Source of the DNA: Acidobacteriaceae bacterium
Lineage (GTDB): Bacteria > Acidobacteriota > Terriglobia > Terriglobales > Acidobacteriaceae
Reading direction: 5' to 3'
Assembly: GCA_035944135.1 (NCBI GenBank)
Contig: DASZBM010000002.1
Span: 620,001 to 684,000, forward strand
Length of the DNA: 64,000 nt
Below are positions 509 through 13,433 of this stretch, piece after piece. Numbering within the stretch: position 1 is the first letter of the stretch; the number at the start of each line of letters is the position of its first letter. The notes beneath the pieces are model-generated. The model was not told where the DNA came from, searched no databases, and worked only from the letters and a program-made list of their open reading frames with translations. The position numbers and the translations under genes were made by a program.

Positions 509-1195
509 TCACCGGCCGAGGATGGGCGGCACAAGCGTTGAGAAGCCGTTCCAGGCGATCTGTACGCCGATGCAGACCACGATGAAGCCGACGACGCGCA
601 GGATTCCTTGTGTGGTCGCGGGCGGGATCGCTCTTGTGAGCCGCGGTGCGTTGGCGTAGCAGAGATAAACGAATGCACTGAGGACCACGATCGCGAGGAA
701 GAGGCCGCCGTGCCTGAGTGCGTTGAGGACGATGCCGCCGTTTTGCGCGCGCGCCGCGAGCGTAAGTGTGACGACGAGCGTGCCGGGGCCTGAGGTCACG
801 GGAAACGTGAAGGGATAAAACGCCTTTTTGTTCAAGGCTTGAAAGCTGTCGTCAGGGTTGACGTGAACCTCTTCGCGCTTGTCGAGCGTCTTCTCTGACT
901 CCTTCGCATTGAGCACGGACCAGCCGATGGCGGCGATGACGATGCCGCCGGAGACTTGCACGATAGGCAGCGAGATGCCGAAGAAGTGCAGAATGGCGGA
1001 GCCGAGGAGCTCGATGACGACGAGAAAGATGACGTTATTGAGGGCGATCTTGCGCGCGAGGCTGCGATAGGCGGCCCGCGGCGCGTCGCCGACGAGGCCG
1101 AGAAAGACCAGCGCGGAGCCGATTGGATTAATGAGCGGCAGAAGCGCGCTGAACGCGATGAGGAACGAGTTCCACAGCTCAATCGCCTGACTCAC
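509..1195 (-). CDS. MarC family integral membrane protein
   Basis: Predicted 228-residue inner-membrane protein of the MarC/UPF0056 family (DUF204-like), with about six hydrophobic segments. Recognisable parts are the N-terminal LLPLINPIGSALVFLGL segment and FTFPVTSGPGTLVVTLTL in the second half, both typical of the family. The GTG at 1195 is chosen because it places the conserved N-terminal segment at the usual distance. The open frame extends further upstream, but only into sequence antisense to nothing conserved and overlapping the mscS-like gene. It lies 28 bases downstream of the mscS-like gene on the same strand, so the two are probably cotranscribed. MarC proteins were once linked to multidrug resistance; that role is not supported and the substrate is unknown. 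Confidence 0.85.
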   Translation of the reverse strand: MSQAIELWNSFLIAFSALLPLINPIGSALVFLGLVGDAPRAAYRSLARKIALNNVIFLVVIELLGSAILHFFGISLPIVQVSGGIVIAAIGWSVLNAKESEKTLDKREEVHVNPDDSFQALNKKAFYPFTFPVTSGPGTLVVTLTLAARAQNGGIVLNALRHGGLFLAIVVLSAFVYLCYANAPRLTRAIPPATTQGILRVVGFIVVCIGVQIAWNGFSTLVPPILGR

Positions 1196-1223
1196 AGGCC
1201 GATGGTAGCAGGCTGGTGTTGTG

Positions 1224-2192
1224 CTACTGCGAGGTTGCGGGCGCCGCAGGTTGCGGTGGTTCGGTGGGCACGGACGGCGGAGCCGGTGGAGCGGCGGTGG
1301 GATCGCGGCGCTCGAGCACGAGCGTGCTGCTGGCGGTGCCGAAGGCGATGTTCTCCTTCTCGAAGGCGAGGAGGATGCGGCGGCGAAGCTCGCGGAGGAC
1401 GCCGTCGCGCTGATTGACCTGCACGCGGATGTTGATGGGGTAGATGACCTCGTGACCGCTGATCTTGTCGACGCCGAGCACGGTGGGTTCATCGATGACA
1501 ACGTCTTTGAAGGCTTCGTCCTGGCGAACCTGGTTGGCGACCCGGGTGAGGACCTGGACGACGCGGTCGGGGTTTTCGCTGGTGCTGACGCTGACCGGAA
1601 GCGTGGCGACGGAGAAGTCGCGCGAAAGATTGGAGACGGTCGTGATCTGGCTGTTGGGCACGATGTAGAGCGTGCCGTCGCCGTCACGGAGCGTGGTGAC
1701 GCGCAGGGTAAGGTTTTCGACGGCGCCCTGAAGACCGGCGATCTTTATGGTGTCGCCGATGGCGTACTGGTCTTCGAGCAGGATGAAGAGGCCGGTGAGC
1801 ATGTCCTTGAAGAGCGACTGCGCGCCAAAGCTGATGCCAAGGCCGATGACGCCGGCGGCGGCGATAAACGAGCCCAGAGGAACGCCGAGCGCGCCGAGGA
1901 TCTGGATGAAGACGTAGGAGGCGATGAGCGCGTAGCCAGTGGCGCGGATGATGCCAGCCAGGGTGCGGAGTTGGGCGGCGCGGTGCGAGTTGCCGACCAT
2001 GGCTTCGGCGCGCTTGCGCATGCGTTTTACAAAAAAGGCGAGGGTCTGCTGGGCGATGAGCGCCAGTAACAAGGCAATGACAATCTTGGGGACGCCGTGC
2101 TGTACAAAGTTCAGGACGTCCAGATGCCAGCCGTGTTCGAGCGAGACGACGGAGCGTTCCTCTTGTGGAAGAGTGGGTGTAAGGGTCATCAT
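1224..2192 (-). CDS. MscS family small-conductance mechanosensitive channel
   Basis: A 322-residue MscS-type channel expected to open under membrane tension and release solutes on hypo-osmotic shock. Three hydrophobic stretches occupy about residues 30-150. The pore-lining helix and following beta domain are clear in the segment GVIGLGISFGAQSLFKDMLT, then the beta-domain block YAIGDTIKIAGLQGAVENL and PNSQITTVSNLSR. The C-terminus has a Pro/Ala-rich tail (about residues 300-322) beyond the usual family end. The start may be the first or second of two adjacent ATG codons (2192 or 2189); no strong Shine-Dalgarno sequence is visible. It is followed closely by the marC-like gene on the same strand. 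Confidence 0.92.
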   Translation of the reverse strand: MMTLTPTLPQEERSVVSLEHGWHLDVLNFVQHGVPKIVIALLLALIAQQTLAFFVKRMRKRAEAMVGNSHRAAQLRTLAGIIRATGYALIASYVFIQILGALGVPLGSFIAAAGVIGLGISFGAQSLFKDMLTGLFILLEDQYAIGDTIKIAGLQGAVENLTLRVTTLRDGDGTLYIVPNSQITTVSNLSRDFSVATLPVSVSTSENPDRVVQVLTRVANQVRQDEAFKDVVIDEPTVLGVDKISGHEVIYPINIRVQVNQRDGVLRELRRRILLAFEKENIAFGTASSTLVLERRDPTAAPPAPPSVPTEPPQPAAPATSQ

Positions 2193-2288
2193 TAATGAAA
2201 ATCCGGTCTACTCCGCAGGATACGAGAGAAGCCAAGCATAAGACGAGTCGCAGCCCGCGGCAGGTAGCTTTGGCAAAGGAGGAGTGAG

Positions 2289-2696
2289 ATGGGACCGAGA
2301 GAAATCAATCACATATTGCGTGTGGGGGCGTTGTGCGCTGCTGTGCTTGTGGTCTCGGGAGCGGGGCTGAACACCGGCAGCGGGGTGGTGCATGCGCAGA
2401 AGAATCCACAGCCGAAGATACCGCCCTATATGCAGCAGGGCCCGGATGGACTGAGCGGAAACCAGCCGGCTCCGGATCCGGTTCACGCCAAGATGGAGCA
2501 GGAACGGATGAAGGCGATGAACGATGATCGGCATAAGAAGCTGGCGGCGGATGTCGACCGTCTGCTGGCGCTGACTAACGAGCTGAAGACTGACGTGGAC
2601 AAGACGAACAAGGACGAGCTCTCGGTGGAGGTCATCAAGAAGGCGGGTGAGATTGAGAAGCTGGCGCATGACGTGCAGAGCCGGATGAAGAACTAG
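2289..2696 (+). CDS. Secreted coiled-coil protein, paralogue 1 of 3
   Basis: A 135-residue protein with no recognised family. A signal peptide is likely (hydrophobic residues 11-30, cleavage near VVHAQ). A Pro/Asn-rich linker follows, then a charged heptad-like helix from about residue 65 to the end containing DVDRLLALTNELK, DVDKTNKDEL and EIEKLAHDVQSRMKN. The ATG has a strong Shine-Dalgarno sequence (AAGGAGGAG) at good spacing. The same C-terminal block recurs in the next two genes, so the three arose by tandem duplication. The protein is probably periplasmic and oligomeric through the coiled coil. Function unknown. Confidence 0.75.
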   Translation: MGPREINHILRVGALCAAVLVVSGAGLNTGSGVVHAQKNPQPKIPPYMQQGPDGLSGNQPAPDPVHAKMEQERMKAMNDDRHKKLAADVDRLLALTNELKTDVDKTNKDELSVEVIKKAGEIEKLAHDVQSRMKN

Positions 2697-2754
2697 AGGC
2701 CGGTGAGCAAGGGCTCTCACGCGCGCACAGGTAGTTCAAGTGAAGGAGAGTGCC

Positions 2755-3156
2755 ATGCGACCGATGAGGTTTGGCCAGGCTGTCCAGACTACTGTGTTGT
2801 GTTCGGCGGTGTTTCTGCTGTTGTCTGACGCGGGTGTGCGGGGTGGCGGCGGAGTGATGGCTGCTCAGCGAAGTCCCGCGATGAACTCAGGCCGGCCGAT
2901 CGATCCCCCAAGCAGCGGTGTGCCTCCGGTATATCCAATCCAGATGGGCAACTCGACAGACGGCGGAGCCCAGGCAGCCAATGCTGAACGTCGCAAGAAG
3001 GTCGCTGCCGATGTGGACAGGCTGGTCCTTCTTAGCAATGAACTGAAAGCGGATGTGGACAAGACGGCGAACGATCAGTTGTCGCTGGACGTGATCAAGA
3101 AGGCGAAAGAGATTGAGAAGCTTGCCCATGCCGTGCAAGGCCAGATGAAGAACTGA
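2755..3156 (+). CDS. Secreted coiled-coil protein, paralogue 2 of 3
   Basis: A 133-residue paralogue of the neighbours on both sides. Residues 1-35 look like a signal peptide ending near GVMAAQ. The C-terminal helix keeps the pattern DVDRLVLLSNELK, DVDKTANDQLS and EIEKLAHAVQGQMKN. It is the most divergent copy: its central linker is different and it lacks the MEQERMKAMND-type segment of copies 1 and 3. The ATG at 2755 is preferred over the in-frame GTG at 2740 because AAGGAGAG lies just upstream of the ATG. It starts 58 bases after copy 1. Function unknown. Confidence 0.72.
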   Translation: MRPMRFGQAVQTTVLCSAVFLLLSDAGVRGGGGVMAAQRSPAMNSGRPIDPPSSGVPPVYPIQMGNSTDGGAQAANAERRKKVAADVDRLVLLSNELKADVDKTANDQLSLDVIKKAKEIEKLAHAVQGQMKN

Positions 3157-3310
3157 AGCGGCGTCGGAACGCATAGATGCGGGGTTGGTACGCCGGGTGT
3201 TGAAGGATATGGTCAGATGAGCCCGGTGCAGCTATAAAGGCTGCGGCTGGTTTTGCCAGTGTCGCCGGGACTTGAGCTGGATATGAGGCGCGCTGCGGGG
3301 AGGACTCGAT

Positions 3311-3872: not shown

Positions 3873-6098
3873 TTGGCGGAAAAACGGACGGCGGGCAAGC
3901 TGGCGGAACGCGGCGGCGGACGCGTTGCCGAGCGGGTAAGTGAACGGGGCGCGGAGCAGGTGGTGGCTGCCGGCCTTACGGCGTCGCAACTCATTGAGTT
4001 CTACCGGCTGATGTATCTCTCGCGGCGCACGGACGACCGCGAGATCATGCTGAAGCGGCAGCAGAAGATCTTCTTCCAGGTCTCGTGCGCAGGGCATGAG
4101 GCGCTCCTGGTGGCTGCGGGTCTGGCTATGAAGCCGGGATACGACTGGTTCTTTCCGTACTATCGCGACCGGGCGATCTGCCTGGCGCTGGGGATGACGG
4201 TGGAGGACCAGCTGCTTCAGGCGGTCGGCGCGGCGACGGATCCTTCGAGCGGCGGACGGCAGATGCCTTCGCACTGGACGAGTAAGCGGCTGAATATCGT
4301 GTCGCCGTCGTCGTCGACGGCAACGCAGTGTCTGCAGGCAGTGGGGTGCGCTGAGGCTGGACGGTATTACCGGAATCATTCCGGGACGGCGAAGCGACTG
4401 ACCGATGGCGCGGATTATCGCAGCTTCAAGGATGTGAAGTTCGAGGCCGATGAGGTCGTGTATGTGTCGATCGGTGAGGGATCGACGAGCCAGGGCGAGT
4501 TCTGGGAGTCGCTGAATACGGCGTCGAACGAGAAGCTGCCGGTCGTGTATGTGATTGAGGACAACGGGTACGCGATCTCGACGCCGGTGGAGGCGAATAC
4601 GCCGGGCGGGAATATCTCCAAGCTGATTGCGAACTTTCCGAATTTCCGCTTCTGGGAGGTCGACGGGACGGACGCGATTGCGAGCTACAAGGCGATGGTG
4701 CAGGCGGTCGAGTACTGCCGCAGTGGGCAGGGGCCGGCAGTGGTGCACGGGCATGTGACGCGGCCGTATTCGCACTCGCTGAGCGATGACGAGCGGCTGT
4801 ACCGCAGCGCAGAGGAGATTGAGGCGGATGCACTGCGCGACCCGATTTCCCGCATGCAGATGTGGCTGCTGCGCGAGGGGATTCTGGACGCGCAGGGAAT
4901 CAATGAGCTCGAGCGCAAGGTGGATGAAGAGGTGCAGCATGCCGCGGATCGCGCGCTGACTGCGGTGCTGCCGACGCCGGACACGATTCTGAAGCATGTG
5001 TACTCAGAGGACCTGGATCCGCGGGATATGCGGTTTGCGACGAAGCCCGCGGTGACCGCGGACGACACCGAGCGCACGATGGCCGACCTCATCAACGCGA
5101 CGCTGAAGGACGAGATGCGACGCGATGAACGGATTGTGGTCTTCGGCGAAGATGTGGCCGATGCCACGCGCGATAAGGCGCTGCGCTCCGGAAAGGTGAA
5201 GGGCAAGGGCGGCGTGTTCAAGCTGACCGCCGGCCTGCAGAAGGAGTTCGGCAACGACCGCGTGTGGAACTCTCCGCTGGCGGAGGCGAATATCACGGGG
5301 CGTGCGATTGGCATGGCGGTGCGCGGGCTGAAGCCGGTGGTGGAGATTCAGTTCTTCGACTACATCTGGCCGGCGATGCACCAGATGCGCAATGAGCTGA
5401 GCGTGATGCGGTGGCGATCGAACGGGCAGTTCTCGTGCCCGCTGGTGATGCGAGTGCCGATCGGCGGGTATCTGACGGGCGGTTCGATCTATCATTCGCA
5501 GTCGGGCGAGAGCATCTTCACGCACACGCCTGGAGTGCGGGTGGTGATGCCGTCGAATGCGTTGGACGCCGCGGGGTTGCTGCGGACCGCTATCCGGTGC
5601 GACGATCCGGTGCTGTTCCTGGAGCATAAGCGGTTGTATCGCGAGACCTTTGGGCGCGCGCCGTACCCGGGGCCGGAGTACATGATTCCGTTCGGCAAGG
5701 CCAAGGTGGTGCGCGAAGGCAAGGACCTGACGGTGATCACCTACGGGGCGGTCGTGCCGCGGGCGCTGCAGGCGGCCCAGCGGATGGCGCGGGAACTGAA
5801 GGTGGAAGTTGAGGTGATCGATCTGCGTTGCCTAAGTCCGTACGACTGGGAGGCGATTGCGGAGTCGGTGAAGAAGACCAGCAAGGTGTTGGTGGCGCAT
5901 GAGGACATGCTGAGCTGGGGTTATGGAGCCGAGATTGCGGCGCGGATTGGCGATGAGCTGTTTCACGACCTGGATGCGCCGGTGCGGCGCGTGGGGTCGA
6001 TGGACACGTTTGTGGCATACCAGCCGCTGCTGGAGGATGTAATCCTGCCTCAGCCGGAGCGGTTGTTTGCGGCGATGAAGGAGCTTGCGGAGTTTTAG
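3873..6098 (+). CDS. Fused E1 alpha-beta thiamine-diphosphate dehydrogenase (branched-chain 2-oxoacid or pyruvate type)
   Basis: A 741-residue protein with the E1 alpha subunit (about residues 30-350) and E1 beta subunit (about 385-741) of a 2-oxoacid dehydrogenase in one chain. The thiamine-diphosphate motif is visible as [18 protein letters not shown] followed by [10 protein letters not shown]. The beta half shows [16 protein letters not shown], the [15 protein letters not shown] block and the C-terminal [19 protein letters not shown] segment. The enzyme would decarboxylate a 2-oxoacid and pass the acyl group to a lipoyl E2. No E2 or E3 gene is in the window, and substrate (branched-chain versus pyruvate) cannot be decided from sequence alone. 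The TTG start is supported by AGGAGGA seven bases upstream. Confidence 0.9.
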
Positions 6099-10284: not shown

Positions 10285-11238
10285 TTAAGGCTGCGTTCCT
10301 TGTGTAGTGTGCGGGACGTATTGATCCACGAAGCGCTGAATGGTTGGGGTCAGCGCCGAGTCGTTTTCCGACGAGAGTTCGAGCGTGATCTTCGGATCGG
10401 CTGCGTTCGTAAGCGCCGCGGGCGTGTGCGAAGTGTTGTAGCTGATCAGGAGCTTCGGCGTCGTGAGTATGTGAAGTGGCGCGGCGAGTGGAAACTGTTC
10501 GTGGAAGAGGAGACGTGCGGGAACCAGGAAGGAATGTGCGTCATGTGCGACGCGCTCGGTGAGGTCGCCTTCGGGCGTGTCGAGGATCATGGCCGGGATG
10601 TCGTGGTTTTCTGCTGCGAGGTTGACAGCGAGTGAAGCGCCGACGCCGTTGCCGTAAAGGATGATTTGCGAGGCGGGGATGTGCTGCGTCGAGATGAGAT
10701 AAGTGAGTGCGGATTCTGCGTCCTGCTGCATGGTGGCTTGCGTCGGATGCTGGCCGACGCTCTTGCCATAGCCGCGATAGTCAAAGATCAGCACGTTGAG
10801 GTGGGCGTTGTGGAGCAGGAGCGCGCGGGGGAGCGCGTCTGAAGCGGAGCCGTCGCCCGAGTGAAGCATCAGAGCCGTGGGAGCAGAGCTTACGTCGGCC
10901 GGGATGTACCAGCCGTTGAGCTGCGGTTGACCGGTGGCGTCGACCGCGAAGTGGAGCTCAGTGAACTTGAGGCCGAGCGACGCCGGCGATTTGGCAACGG
11001 TGCGCGACGGGTGAAGCACGAGCTGCCACTGTCCCTGATACCAGAGCAGGCAGAGCGTGCCCCAGGAGAGGAGCAGCGCGGTGGCGAAGACGATTGCCAA
11101 AGCTTTGAGGATCCAGCGCGGGTCTATGAGTTCGGGCGCACCGCTGAGTTCGGGCGCGCCGCTCTTTTGTGCCGGACGCTGAGATGATTGGGGTGTGCGT
11201 GAGGGGCGCGGAAGGTTCGGCTTGCGAGGAGCTGGCAT
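10285..11238 (-). CDS. Membrane-anchored alpha/beta-hydrolase-fold protein with degenerate catalytic triad
   Basis: A 317-residue protein. A Pro/Ser-rich cytoplasmic tail (residues 1-40, including a short SGAPEL duplication) precedes one transmembrane helix (about 47-68). An alpha/beta-hydrolase domain then faces the periplasm, resembling the YqkD/Bem46 group. FDYRGYGKS and the oxyanion-side block are present, but the nucleophile elbow reads YGNGVGAS, with glycine where the serine should be. The usual C-terminal catalytic histidine region reads SSENDSAL, without histidine. By family knowledge this argues against normal hydrolase chemistry, so it may be a binding or scaffold protein. Divergently transcribed from the Rieske gene. 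Start at ATG 11238; ribosome site weak. Confidence 0.78.
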   Translation of the reverse strand: MPAPRKPNLPRPSRTPQSSQRPAQKSGAPELSGAPELIDPRWILKALAIVFATALLLSWGTLCLLWYQGQWQLVLHPSRTVAKSPASLGLKFTELHFAVDATGQPQLNGWYIPADVSSAPTALMLHSGDGSASDALPRALLLHNAHLNVLIFDYRGYGKSVGQHPTQATMQQDAESALTYLISTQHIPASQIILYGNGVGASLAVNLAAENHDIPAMILDTPEGDLTERVAHDAHSFLVPARLLFHEQFPLAAPLHILTTPKLLISYNTSHTPAALTNAADPKITLELSSENDSALTPTIQRFVDQYVPHTTQGTQP

Positions 11239-11291
11239 GAGTCTTCTGTACAGAGTTCAGCATCTCACGTGCGGACCTGAATGGAGAGTTT

Positions 11292-11603
11292 GTGAGCGAG
11301 TGGGTGCGGCTGTGCGACGTCAACGAAGCACCAAAGCCGGGCGAGGTGATGGAGTTGGAAGTGAACGGCGTGCAGGTTTGCCTCGCGAATGTGGATGGAA
11401 GGCTGGCTGCACTTGGGAATATTTGCCCGCACCGCGGAGGGCCGCTGGGGCAAGGTTGGATTGAGGGTGAAGCGGTCGTATGCCCGTGGCACTGTTGGGC
11501 GTTCGATACCCGGAGCGGGCAGGCGCTGCCGCCGGACTGCGGGAAGGTCGACGTAATTCCGCTCAGGGTCGAAGGCGACAACGTGCTCATTCAAGTGAGC
11601 TGA
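11292..11603 (+). CDS. Rieske [2Fe-2S] ferredoxin-like protein
   Basis: A 103-residue, single-domain Rieske protein. The cluster ligands are visible as CPHRG (about residues 45-49) and CPWHCW (about 64-69), giving the two Cys and two His needed for a [2Fe-2S] centre. Length and lack of a signal peptide fit the soluble ferredoxins of ring-hydroxylating dioxygenases or NirD-like proteins. No oxygenase gene is adjacent, so the electron acceptor is unknown. The GTG start has GGAGAG close upstream. A weak CCAAA/TTTGG hairpin with a T-run follows around 11640-11660. Confidence 0.87.
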   Translation: MSEWVRLCDVNEAPKPGEVMELEVNGVQVCLANVDGRLAALGNICPHRGGPLGQGWIEGEAVVCPWHCWAFDTRSGQALPPDCGKVDVIPLRVEGDNVLIQVS

Positions 11604-11757
11604 ACAGGCAACCTTTTGCTGTTTAGCATGAATATCCCAAGCCAAAGAAAGGTTTTTTGGGGGCAAACTTCGAGGTGCGGATGGCTTCTTACTCACTGTC
11701 GCAGGGCGTCAGGGAAATTGACGAAATGAAATAGACGCCCGCGAGGGGAACGAAATC

Positions 11758-11889
11758 ATGATGAAGCGAATTCTTTTGGGTGTGTTTTCTCTGGCAGTGG
11801 TTCTAGCAACGGCGAGTACATCACAGGCTCAGTATCACCACCGGCATTGCTGGTATCAGCATCATCACCGCGTTTGCCGGGCGCGCTAG
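11758..11889 (+). CDS. Secreted His/Cys/Arg-rich micro-peptide, copy 1
   Basis: A 43-residue gene, unusually short. Residues 1-24 form a clear signal peptide (MMKR, hydrophobic core, cleavage after STSQA). The predicted mature peptide is only 19 residues, QYHHRHCWYQHHHRVCRAR, with six His, two Cys and five Arg. AGGGGA lies eight bases before the first ATG, and an intrinsic terminator follows 52 bases after the stop. A near-identical gene lies 155 bases downstream. Fourteen of 19 mature positions match between the two copies, including both Cys and the HHHRVCR block, which argues for selection on the protein. The composition suggests metal binding, disulfide formation or membrane activity. This is inference; no family is recognised. 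Confidence 0.72.
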   Translation: MMKRILLGVFSLAVVLATASTSQAQYHHRHCWYQHHHRVCRAR

Positions 11890-11941
11890 TCCGGCTGTAG
11901 CGAGATGAGCTATTCAACAGGACAATAGACGTTGCAGAGAG

Positions 11942-11964
11942 CCCGGCCTGACGCCGGGTTTTTT
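11942..11964 (+). terminator. Intrinsic terminator of micro-peptide copy 1
   Basis: CCCGGC, loop CTGAC, GCCGGG, then six T. It makes the first micro-peptide gene a separate short transcription unit. Confidence 0.85.
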
Positions 11965-12044
11965 GCACCGCTCATACAGCGTTCGGCGAGGTTTGTGCAT
12001 TCTTAGCACTTGACGGGAGATTTTCGCCCGGGAGGGAGTGTCAC

Positions 12045-12173
12045 ATGAGACGGGTTCTGTTGGGAGCGCTAACTCTGGCCATGGTTCTGGGTGTGGCCGG
12101 TAACTCGCAGGCGCAGCACCGGCACCGGCACTGCTGGTGGAGACATCATCACCGGGTTTGCCGTTACAGGTAG
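12045..12173 (+). CDS. Secreted His/Cys/Arg-rich micro-peptide, copy 2
   Basis: A 42-residue paralogue of the previous gene. It has a signal peptide of 23 residues (MRRVLLG, hydrophobic core, GNSQA) and a 19-residue mature part, QHRHRHCWWRHHHRVCRYR. Relative to copy 1 the changes are conservative in character (Tyr/His, His/Arg, Tyr/Trp, Gln/Arg, Ala/Tyr), and both Cys and the His triplet are kept. A strong GGAGGGAG ribosome site lies upstream, and an intrinsic terminator begins 24 bases after the stop. Both copies sit between the Rieske gene and carA with no link to either. Function unknown: metal chelation in the periplasm, a disulfide-stabilised cationic peptide and an envelope-stress peptide are all possible. 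Confidence 0.72.
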   Translation: MRRVLLGALTLAMVLGVAGNSQAQHRHRHCWWRHHHRVCRYR

Positions 12174-12196
12174 TAGCAACCGAAACTTTGCCGAAG

Positions 12197-12220
12197 GGCC
12201 CGGTGAGAGCCGGGCCTTTT
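12197..12220 (+). terminator. Intrinsic terminator of micro-peptide copy 2
   Basis: GGCCCGG, loop TGAGAG, CCGGGCC, then TTTT. It separates the micro-peptide unit from carA, which starts 76 bases later. Confidence 0.82.
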
Positions 12221-12296
12221 GCTGTGTTTGGTCATGAAGACGCGCTGGCGGCGAGCCTGTTAGGATAGATAGAGTCCACTCCCCAAGGGAGATTCC

Positions 12297-13433
12297 ATGC
12301 AGGCAATTCTTGCGCTCGAGGATGGGCGCATCTTTCGCGGCCGAGGTTTCGGCGCGCCGGTGGAGCGCGTGGGTGAGGTCGTTTTCAATACCTCGCTTAC
12401 TGGCTACCAGGAAATTTTCACCGACCCGTCGTATACGGGCCAGATCGTCGTTCTGACGAACCCACACATTGGGAACTATGGCACGTCTCCGAGCGATGCG
12501 GAGTCGGCGCGGCCGGCGATCGAGGGGCTGGTGGTGCGGGAGTTTTCGCCTGTCGCTTCGAACTGGCGATCGACAGAGGTTGCCGATGAATATTTAGAGC
12601 GCAGCGGCGTTCCGGTCATCGCGGAGATTGATACACGTGCGGTCGTGCGCCATCTTCGCGCGAATGGATGTTTGCGCGGCGTGATCTCGACGAACGTGAA
12701 TGATGTGGACGCGTTGGTGGCGAAGGCGCGGGCCCACAAAACCATGGCAGGCACCGATCTCGCGAGTGTAGTGACGACGCAGAAGACCTACGAATGGTCG
12801 AGCGAGGATCCGCGCAACGAGACGGGGGATGCGCTGCTGCCGGGTCAGGACACCGCGGCGGTGGAGCAGTTGCATGTGGTGGCATATGACTATGGGATCA
12901 AGCAGAACATCCTGCGCATGCTCACGCGCGAGAACTGCCGTGTAACGGTCGTTCCGGCGACGACGTCCGCCAAAGAAGTCCTGAAGCTGAATCCGGACGG
13001 GGTGTTCTTCTCGAACGGGCCGGGCGATCCGGAGCCGCTGGAGTATGCGGTCGCAAACATTCGCGAGCTGCAGGGCAAGAAGCCGATGTTCGGGATCTGC
13101 TTGGGGCATCAGTTGTTTGGGCTGGCGCTGGGCGGCAGGACGTACAAGCTGAAGTTCGGGCACCACGGCGGAAATCATCCGATCAAGAACCTGGAGACGG
13201 GCAAGGTCGAGATCACGTCGCAGAATCACAACTTCAATGTTGATCCTGACTCGCTGCCGGACGATGTTGTGCAGACGCATGTGAATCTGAACGACAACAC
13301 GCTCGCGGGGCTGAAGCATAAGAGCGATCCGATGTTCAGCGTGCAGTATCACCCGGAGGCAAGCCCGGGGCCGCATGATTCGCATTATCTGTTCCGCGAC
13401 TTCAGGAAGATGATGGAGGAGTGGAAGAAGTGA
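12297..13433 (+). CDS. carA: Carbamoyl-phosphate synthase small (glutaminase) subunit
   Basis: A 378-residue class I glutamine amidotransferase subunit that hydrolyses glutamine and channels ammonia to CarB for carbamoyl phosphate (pyrimidine and arginine synthesis). The N-terminal CarA-specific domain ([19 protein letters not shown]) is followed by the amidotransferase domain from about residue 195. Catalytic Cys lies in [16 protein letters not shown], and the His/Glu pair in [13 protein letters not shown]. The ATG at 12297 has AAGGGAG at correct spacing. carB follows on the same strand after 113 bases that hold a palindromic repeat. Confidence 0.97.

Follow-up and report, generated by a model that had tools for sequence, protein, structure and literature searches.

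What are two open reading frames of 43 and 42 codons doing between a Rieske gene and carA, and, if they are genes, what might their products be for? The question is raised by the window, a stretch of 64,000 nucleotides from the genome of an Acidobacteriaceae bacterium (G000), one of 28 genomes of Granulicella and close kin that are referred to here as the home genus. The locus has the following features.

11292..11603, plus strand: left neighbour and slot border, a Rieske [2Fe-2S] protein (Pfam PF00355, E=1.8e-18; synteny)
11665..11692, plus strand: candidate ECF-sigma-like promoter before the first gene, AAACTT-N16-TCTTAC (pattern; pair search)
11758..11889, plus strand: first peptide gene, P0001, 43 codons (orthologues; pN/pS)
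11758..11829 and 11830..11886, plus strand: putative signal and putative mature part of P0001 (cleavage site judged by eye)
11942..11964, plus strand: terminator of the first gene, CCCGGC-CTGAC-GCCGGG-TTTTTT (read by eye and by a hairpin script, score 21; unlisted by a separate terminator scan)
12045..12173, plus strand: second peptide gene, P0002, 42 codons
12045..12113 and 12114..12170, plus strand: putative signal and putative mature part of P0002
12192..12221, plus strand: terminator of the second gene (terminator scan and hairpin script)
12297..13433, plus strand: right neighbour and slot border, carA (named by eye from its translation; synteny)

The initial annotation had described two genes of 42-43 residues here, each with a ribosome site, a signal peptide and a separate terminator, and this description stands. 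Both ORFs were confirmed between the Rieske gene and carA, a purine-rich stretch precedes both start codons, and a hairpin with a T run lies behind each gene. P0001 starts with ATG-ATG and thus has 43 residues from the first Met or 42 from the second; P0002 has 42. Both N-termini carry the features of a Sec-type signal as judged by eye (K/R, a hydrophobic core and an A-x-A end). Of the 19 positions in the putative mature parts, 14 are the same in both peptides, the two Cys and an HHH triplet among them, which is the count given before. An Rfam scan of 11200-12400 gave no match, and a weak match elsewhere in the same genome (L003) contains no peptide gene.

Comparison with related genomes revealed a fixed location. 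Within the home genus, P0002 as query matched in 14 of the 28 genomes, its own included (E<=0.01), and the NCBIfam model NF040554 in 13 (E<=0.1); 8-12 kb around the matches were read for synteny. The slot to the right of a hydrolase/Rieske pair holds a peptide gene in 13 of the 28 genomes (14 genes), and only the window's genome has a tandem pair there. The Rieske gene is present at 11 of these 13 slots (absent in G017 and G027), and carA follows closely in 12, lying 4.5 kb away in G025. G005 has off-slot copies only among the regions read, which do not include its carA slot, and inspection of weak matches in G035, G038, G064, G077 and G078 found no peptide gene. A second genus of the same family, g63, encodes a peptide of similar size at the same slot in 15 genomes; the Rieske gene is present in 13 of 14 of them (absent in G147), and in the 15th, G304, the slot gene has a GTG start. 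Across a phylum sample, a profile of the home-genus peptides matched in 22 of 396 genomes: the window's own, the 15 of g63, two of genus g32 with off-slot copies (L091 and L092), and four others, three of which match in the signal part only (model positions 1-25 or 1-29). Orthologues with a conserved signal and Cys/His pattern, for which the initial annotation had proposed to look, were thus found within the home genus. P0002 had no match among plasmids and phages.

The gene is nevertheless dispensable: where home- and second-genus genomes gave no match, it is lacking in all six carA upstream regions that were read. Eleven further home-genus genomes, several of them incomplete, likewise have no match. 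These six belong to 40 carA upstream regions of approximately 2-3 kb (three from the home genus and three from the second, both without a peptide match, 11 from g32 and 23 from other genera), and filtering these for ORFs that would encode small, exported, His-rich products left no candidate in any of the 40; CarA itself has a match in 227 of the 250 genomes of the family. Six-frame reading of five of the six empty gaps in the home and second genera showed no His-rich frame.

Off-slot acidobacterial copies adjoin dnaX-recR (L086, L088 and L046), infC (L089) or an NrnA/GNAT group (L091 and L092), all named by eye. The copies beside dnaX-recR mark a second slot in the home genus and are longer relatives with VVVxVG before the His tail. 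One of these loci, L086 in G005, is a tandem pair (1797-1931 and 2123-2263) made up of a Cys-containing and a Cys-free copy. The neighbours of the acidobacterial and Burkholderiales copies, read by eye, gave no hint at function.

Codon changes indicate what is being maintained. For the 14 home-genus slot genes, pN/pS was 0.42 overall, 0.50 in the signal and 0.33 in the mature part; the corresponding values for 14 second-genus slot genes (G304 left out) were 0.31, 0.30 and 0.31. Jukes-Cantor dN/dS in the home genus was 0.15-0.20, rough values because synonymous sites are near saturation. The window's own pair differs with pS 0.59 and pN 0.23, and the aligned mature parts of G015 and G007 are separated by five synonymous and no nonsynonymous changes; a less clear case is G022-G002, with two synonymous and five nonsynonymous changes (pS 0.18, pN 0.10). 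Selection on the peptide had been suspected from the two copies, and the dN/dS check proposed at that time now points to purifying selection, as the pN/pS of 0.33 for the mature part indicates. The terminators are kept as well. A terminator-like hairpin lies downstream of all 28 aligned slot genes, with a score of at least 22 in 26 of them (21 for the first copy in G000, 16 in G209). Of 560 single-base-shuffled downstream regions, by comparison, 3 reach this score and 92 have a hairpin of any score; the stems vary in sequence among genomes and the pairing is preserved. P0001 and P0002 are real, conserved genes under selection.

The composition of 26 mature parts (14 from the home genus and 12 from the second) shows which residues are constant. 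His makes up 30-69% of every one of them, accompanied by one to seven Arg/Lys and only zero to two acidic residues. All 14 home-genus peptides have two Cys with eight residues between them, His contents of 30-47% and an H-R-[VH]-C pattern conserved by position; none of the 12 second-genus peptides has Cys, and their His content is 40-69% with one to seven Arg/Lys. Dense His with Arg is thus the common core and Cys a lineage variant. The initial annotation had stressed the Cys pair, but an essential role of it is not supported, given the Cys-free orthologues at the same slot and one of the L086 copies. These same peptides also mean that a disulfide-stabilised structure, as proposed earlier, cannot account for what the slot genes have in common in function. 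Given the assumed cleavage, 9 of the 14 home-genus mature parts, that of P0001 included, would start with X-X-His, an N-terminal arrangement that forms a site for Cu(II)/Ni(II).

Upstream of the home-genus genes, a promoter candidate recurs. ECF sigma promoters are laid out with AAC near -35 and TCT near -10, and in the home genus a fuller pattern of this kind occurs upstream of 13 of 14 slot genes (169 bases before the gene in G027); it is present in 1 of 10 second-genus upstreams, none of seven off-slot upstreams and none of six empty slots. Because this pattern had been derived by inspecting these very upstreams, spaced 3-mer pairs were also searched for without bias, with G002 left out as near-identical to G022. 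AAC-N18/19-TCT was the top pair, in 11 of 13 home-genus slot upstreams; no pair in 100 dinucleotide-shuffled sets exceeded 9 of 13, a count attained in five sets, a comparison that gives no strict probability because the remaining genomes are still related. The pattern was not found before P0002, and since it is also missing from most second-genus and all tested off-slot upstreams, ECF control is not general. By eye, second-genus slot upstreams carry other elements (GAGGAAA, TAAGCTGC). In three genomes the strict form was found at 14 places, the peptide genes accounting for three, versus eight for the reversed pattern, so little enrichment that no regulon can be claimed. One of these places lies 12 bases upstream of a gene for an ECF sigma factor (Sigma70_r2, E=3.6e-19), as expected for self-regulation. 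This gene (L198, at C1:548203-548817 in G000; orthologues L199-L219), one candidate for the factor that reads the peptide genes, is conserved in 22 of the 28 home-genus genomes, and the promoter layout precedes 4 of the 22 orthologues by pattern, its own included, and by eye something similar precedes several more. The -10 parts differ, being TCTGA at the sigma gene and TCTCAT, TCTAAT or TCTTAC at the peptide genes. A GAAACTTT...AGTCTGA-like element precedes the sigma gene in several home-genus genomes, and near it in G000 (L220, 2098-2532) a further small secreted-looking protein is encoded, in which His residues are dispersed and a Gly-rich stretch resembles a zipper.

What, then, could such peptides do? 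Our main reading, to which we assign a probability of roughly 0.4, is that they are His-rich envelope peptides that would be exported by the Sec route and act as metal-ion buffers. Each gene is a free-standing unit with its ribosome site and its own terminator, the first having in addition the candidate ECF-like promoter. The product would be cleaved after A-x-A to approximately 19 residues, and the His-rich (in the home genus, His/Cys-rich) peptide might bind transition-metal ions in the envelope, Cu, Ni or Zn being the probable ones, and so serve as a small buffer that is disposable. An ECF sigma factor may direct its production when the envelope is under stress. The slot orthologues, the pN/pS values, the terminators, the His content, the X-X-His starts and the ECF-like pair suit this function, as do the precedents of bufferins and Hpn. 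The single-gene units, the putative signal peptide, the dense His, the lack of an enzyme partner and the loss in some strains are more easily reconciled with a metal buffer than with a bacteriocin or leader peptide, and metal capture is the likeliest of the three functions that the initial annotation had considered. Several observations count against it: no metal-handling gene was recognised by eye beside the acidobacterial copies read, the gene is dispensable and the ECF-like pair is not general. Furthermore, these bacteria are said to live at acid pH, where His binds Zn and Ni poorly. If metal buffering is true, few of the enzyme-free metal buffers of the envelope known to us would be as small as these peptides. 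The occurrence of the same slot with and without Cys is a natural experiment, and the peptides are short enough for quick synthesis and titration.

The nearest analogy in action is offered by the bufferins (DUF2282 and Buf2), MNIO-modified peptides described as Sec-exported and copper-sequestering; ECF-type sigma genes were among those looked for in bufferin clusters (PMC12452194). Sec export, as their signals recognised by eye suggest, and copper sequestration may be shared by the peptides studied here. Unlike the bufferins, which need the MNIO enzyme, P0001 and P0002 occur in a genome without a match to it (PF05114), and neither has a DUF2282 match in Pfam. The enzyme was found in 10 of 28 home-genus genomes and never near the slot; in the 8 of 13 slot genomes that have it, it lies on another contig or more than 100 kb away from the peptide gene. 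As the enzyme was not found in G000 and is distant elsewhere, membership in the bufferins was rejected. Hpn and Hpn-like of Helicobacter pylori are likewise small, very His-rich and nickel-binding. Hpn is cytoplasmic and longer than the slot peptides. The slot peptides would work like bufferins or Hpn without being members of either group. A more specific version of metal buffering, doubtful as a whole, would make them enzyme-free "mini-bufferins": Sec-exported micro-peptides of approximately 12-23 residues, encoded in fixed slots beside housekeeping genes and switching between His-only and His/Cys forms, which would buffer envelope copper (or nickel or zinc) and in the home genus might be under ECF-sigma control.

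The strongest rival, which owes its weight to the acid soils said to be the habitat of these bacteria but is still unlikely, is a pH-switched polycation. Its His residues would be protonated in acid soil, and the exported peptide would coat LPS, peptidoglycan or other anions and protect or buffer the envelope, metals being irrelevant. The combination of His with Arg/Lys and few acidic residues, the dispensable Cys and an ECF-like promoter, which would suit envelope stress, agree with this idea. However, the position-specific conservation of H-R-[VH]-C in the home genus exceeds what a bulk polycation needs, and relatives occur in Paraburkholderia, a group not known to us as acid specialists. 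An antimicrobial or competition peptide, cationic and in the home genus closed by a disulfide, is improbable. Small size, positive charge and the constant Cys spacing would be appropriate for it, but purifying selection and a fixed slot in two genera argue against this function, as does the failure to recognise by eye any immunity, processing or dedicated export gene beside the copies, although a small novel immunity gene could escape such a reading. The antimicrobial idea of the initial annotation loses ground accordingly. Very improbable is a regulatory leader peptide or attenuator of carAB. The gene does lie directly upstream of carA in most slot genomes, but a terminator closes each unit ahead of carA, five empty slots show by eye a -10-like TGATAGAAT of carA's own, and relatives adjoin dnaX-recR, infC and other genes; a carA leader was rejected on the grounds of these terminators and locations. 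Finally, chance ORFs without a product, for which the very short length and the absence from many related genomes might speak, can be set aside, because the same slot is occupied in 28 genomes of two genera with pN/pS well below 1 and conserved terminators.

The metal-buffer reading would also suggest a first function for a named family. The initial annotation had recognised no family, which remains correct for Pfam (nothing up to E=10 for P0001 and P0002, and only matches far under their cut-offs for ten relatives) and does not hold for NCBIfam, where NF040554, "HHHH-motif protein" (mini_HHHH), is a sub-threshold relative. P0001 matches it at E=1.4e-5 and 25.2 bits, aligned to model positions 1-42 of 45, and P0002 at E=0.11 and 12.7 bits, under the cut-off of 40 bits that none of the 28 home-genus genomes reaches (best protein 38.5). 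To our knowledge no function is known for NF040554, and among open-licence papers we found none on "HHHH-motif protein" or "mini_HHHH" and none, by title or abstract, on these peptides or on Granulicella small proteins. The slot genes are conserved peptide genes related to a named family that itself has no literature found, and it is their function that we infer. Shared with this family are the size, the signal-like N-terminus (by eye), two Cys in a His-rich tail and [HQR]VC...HHHRVC with an aromatic residue. The home-genus peptides differ from it in scoring 12.7-38.5 bits, below the cut-off, and in having 8 residues between the Cys as compared to 9 in most Burkholderiales members; the Cys-free second-genus peptide tested gave no match to the model.

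The core of NF040554 lies in Paraburkholderia, where 14 of 77 genomes match, 8 over the cut-off. Because 3 of 14 unrelated control genomes also gave weak matches (E<=0.1), only strong ones count; a weak match in G003 has E=0.0095. Five of ten relatives match the model (Paraburkholderia ribeironis with 71.9 bits, G022 with 38.5 and three with 28.7-30.6), and three Cys-free peptides, L088 and a Hyphomicrobium protein do not. When 14 acidobacterial mature parts were scored with a profile of 10 Burkholderiales ones, seven, P0001 and P0002 included, beat all 200 shuffles; for the other seven, 2-11 of 200 shuffles scored equally well. Common descent of the acidobacterial peptides with the Paraburkholderia family is thus likely but not proven. 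A Paraburkholderia peptide matched three plasmid records, of which the two inspected are almost without annotation and say nothing on context. In 14 regions read, the Burkholderiales copies have mixed neighbours. In one of these regions (L181, Paraburkholderia genus), a copy at 3995-4132 lies approximately 0.75 kb from a gene (1136-3241) whose 701-aa product has a His-rich N-terminus and by eye resembles a metal-transporting ATPase. A similar motif occurs in Hyphomicrobium proteins of approximately 65-95 aa (L044 and L048), which have HRHCWWRHGHRHCRW-like C-terminal tails.
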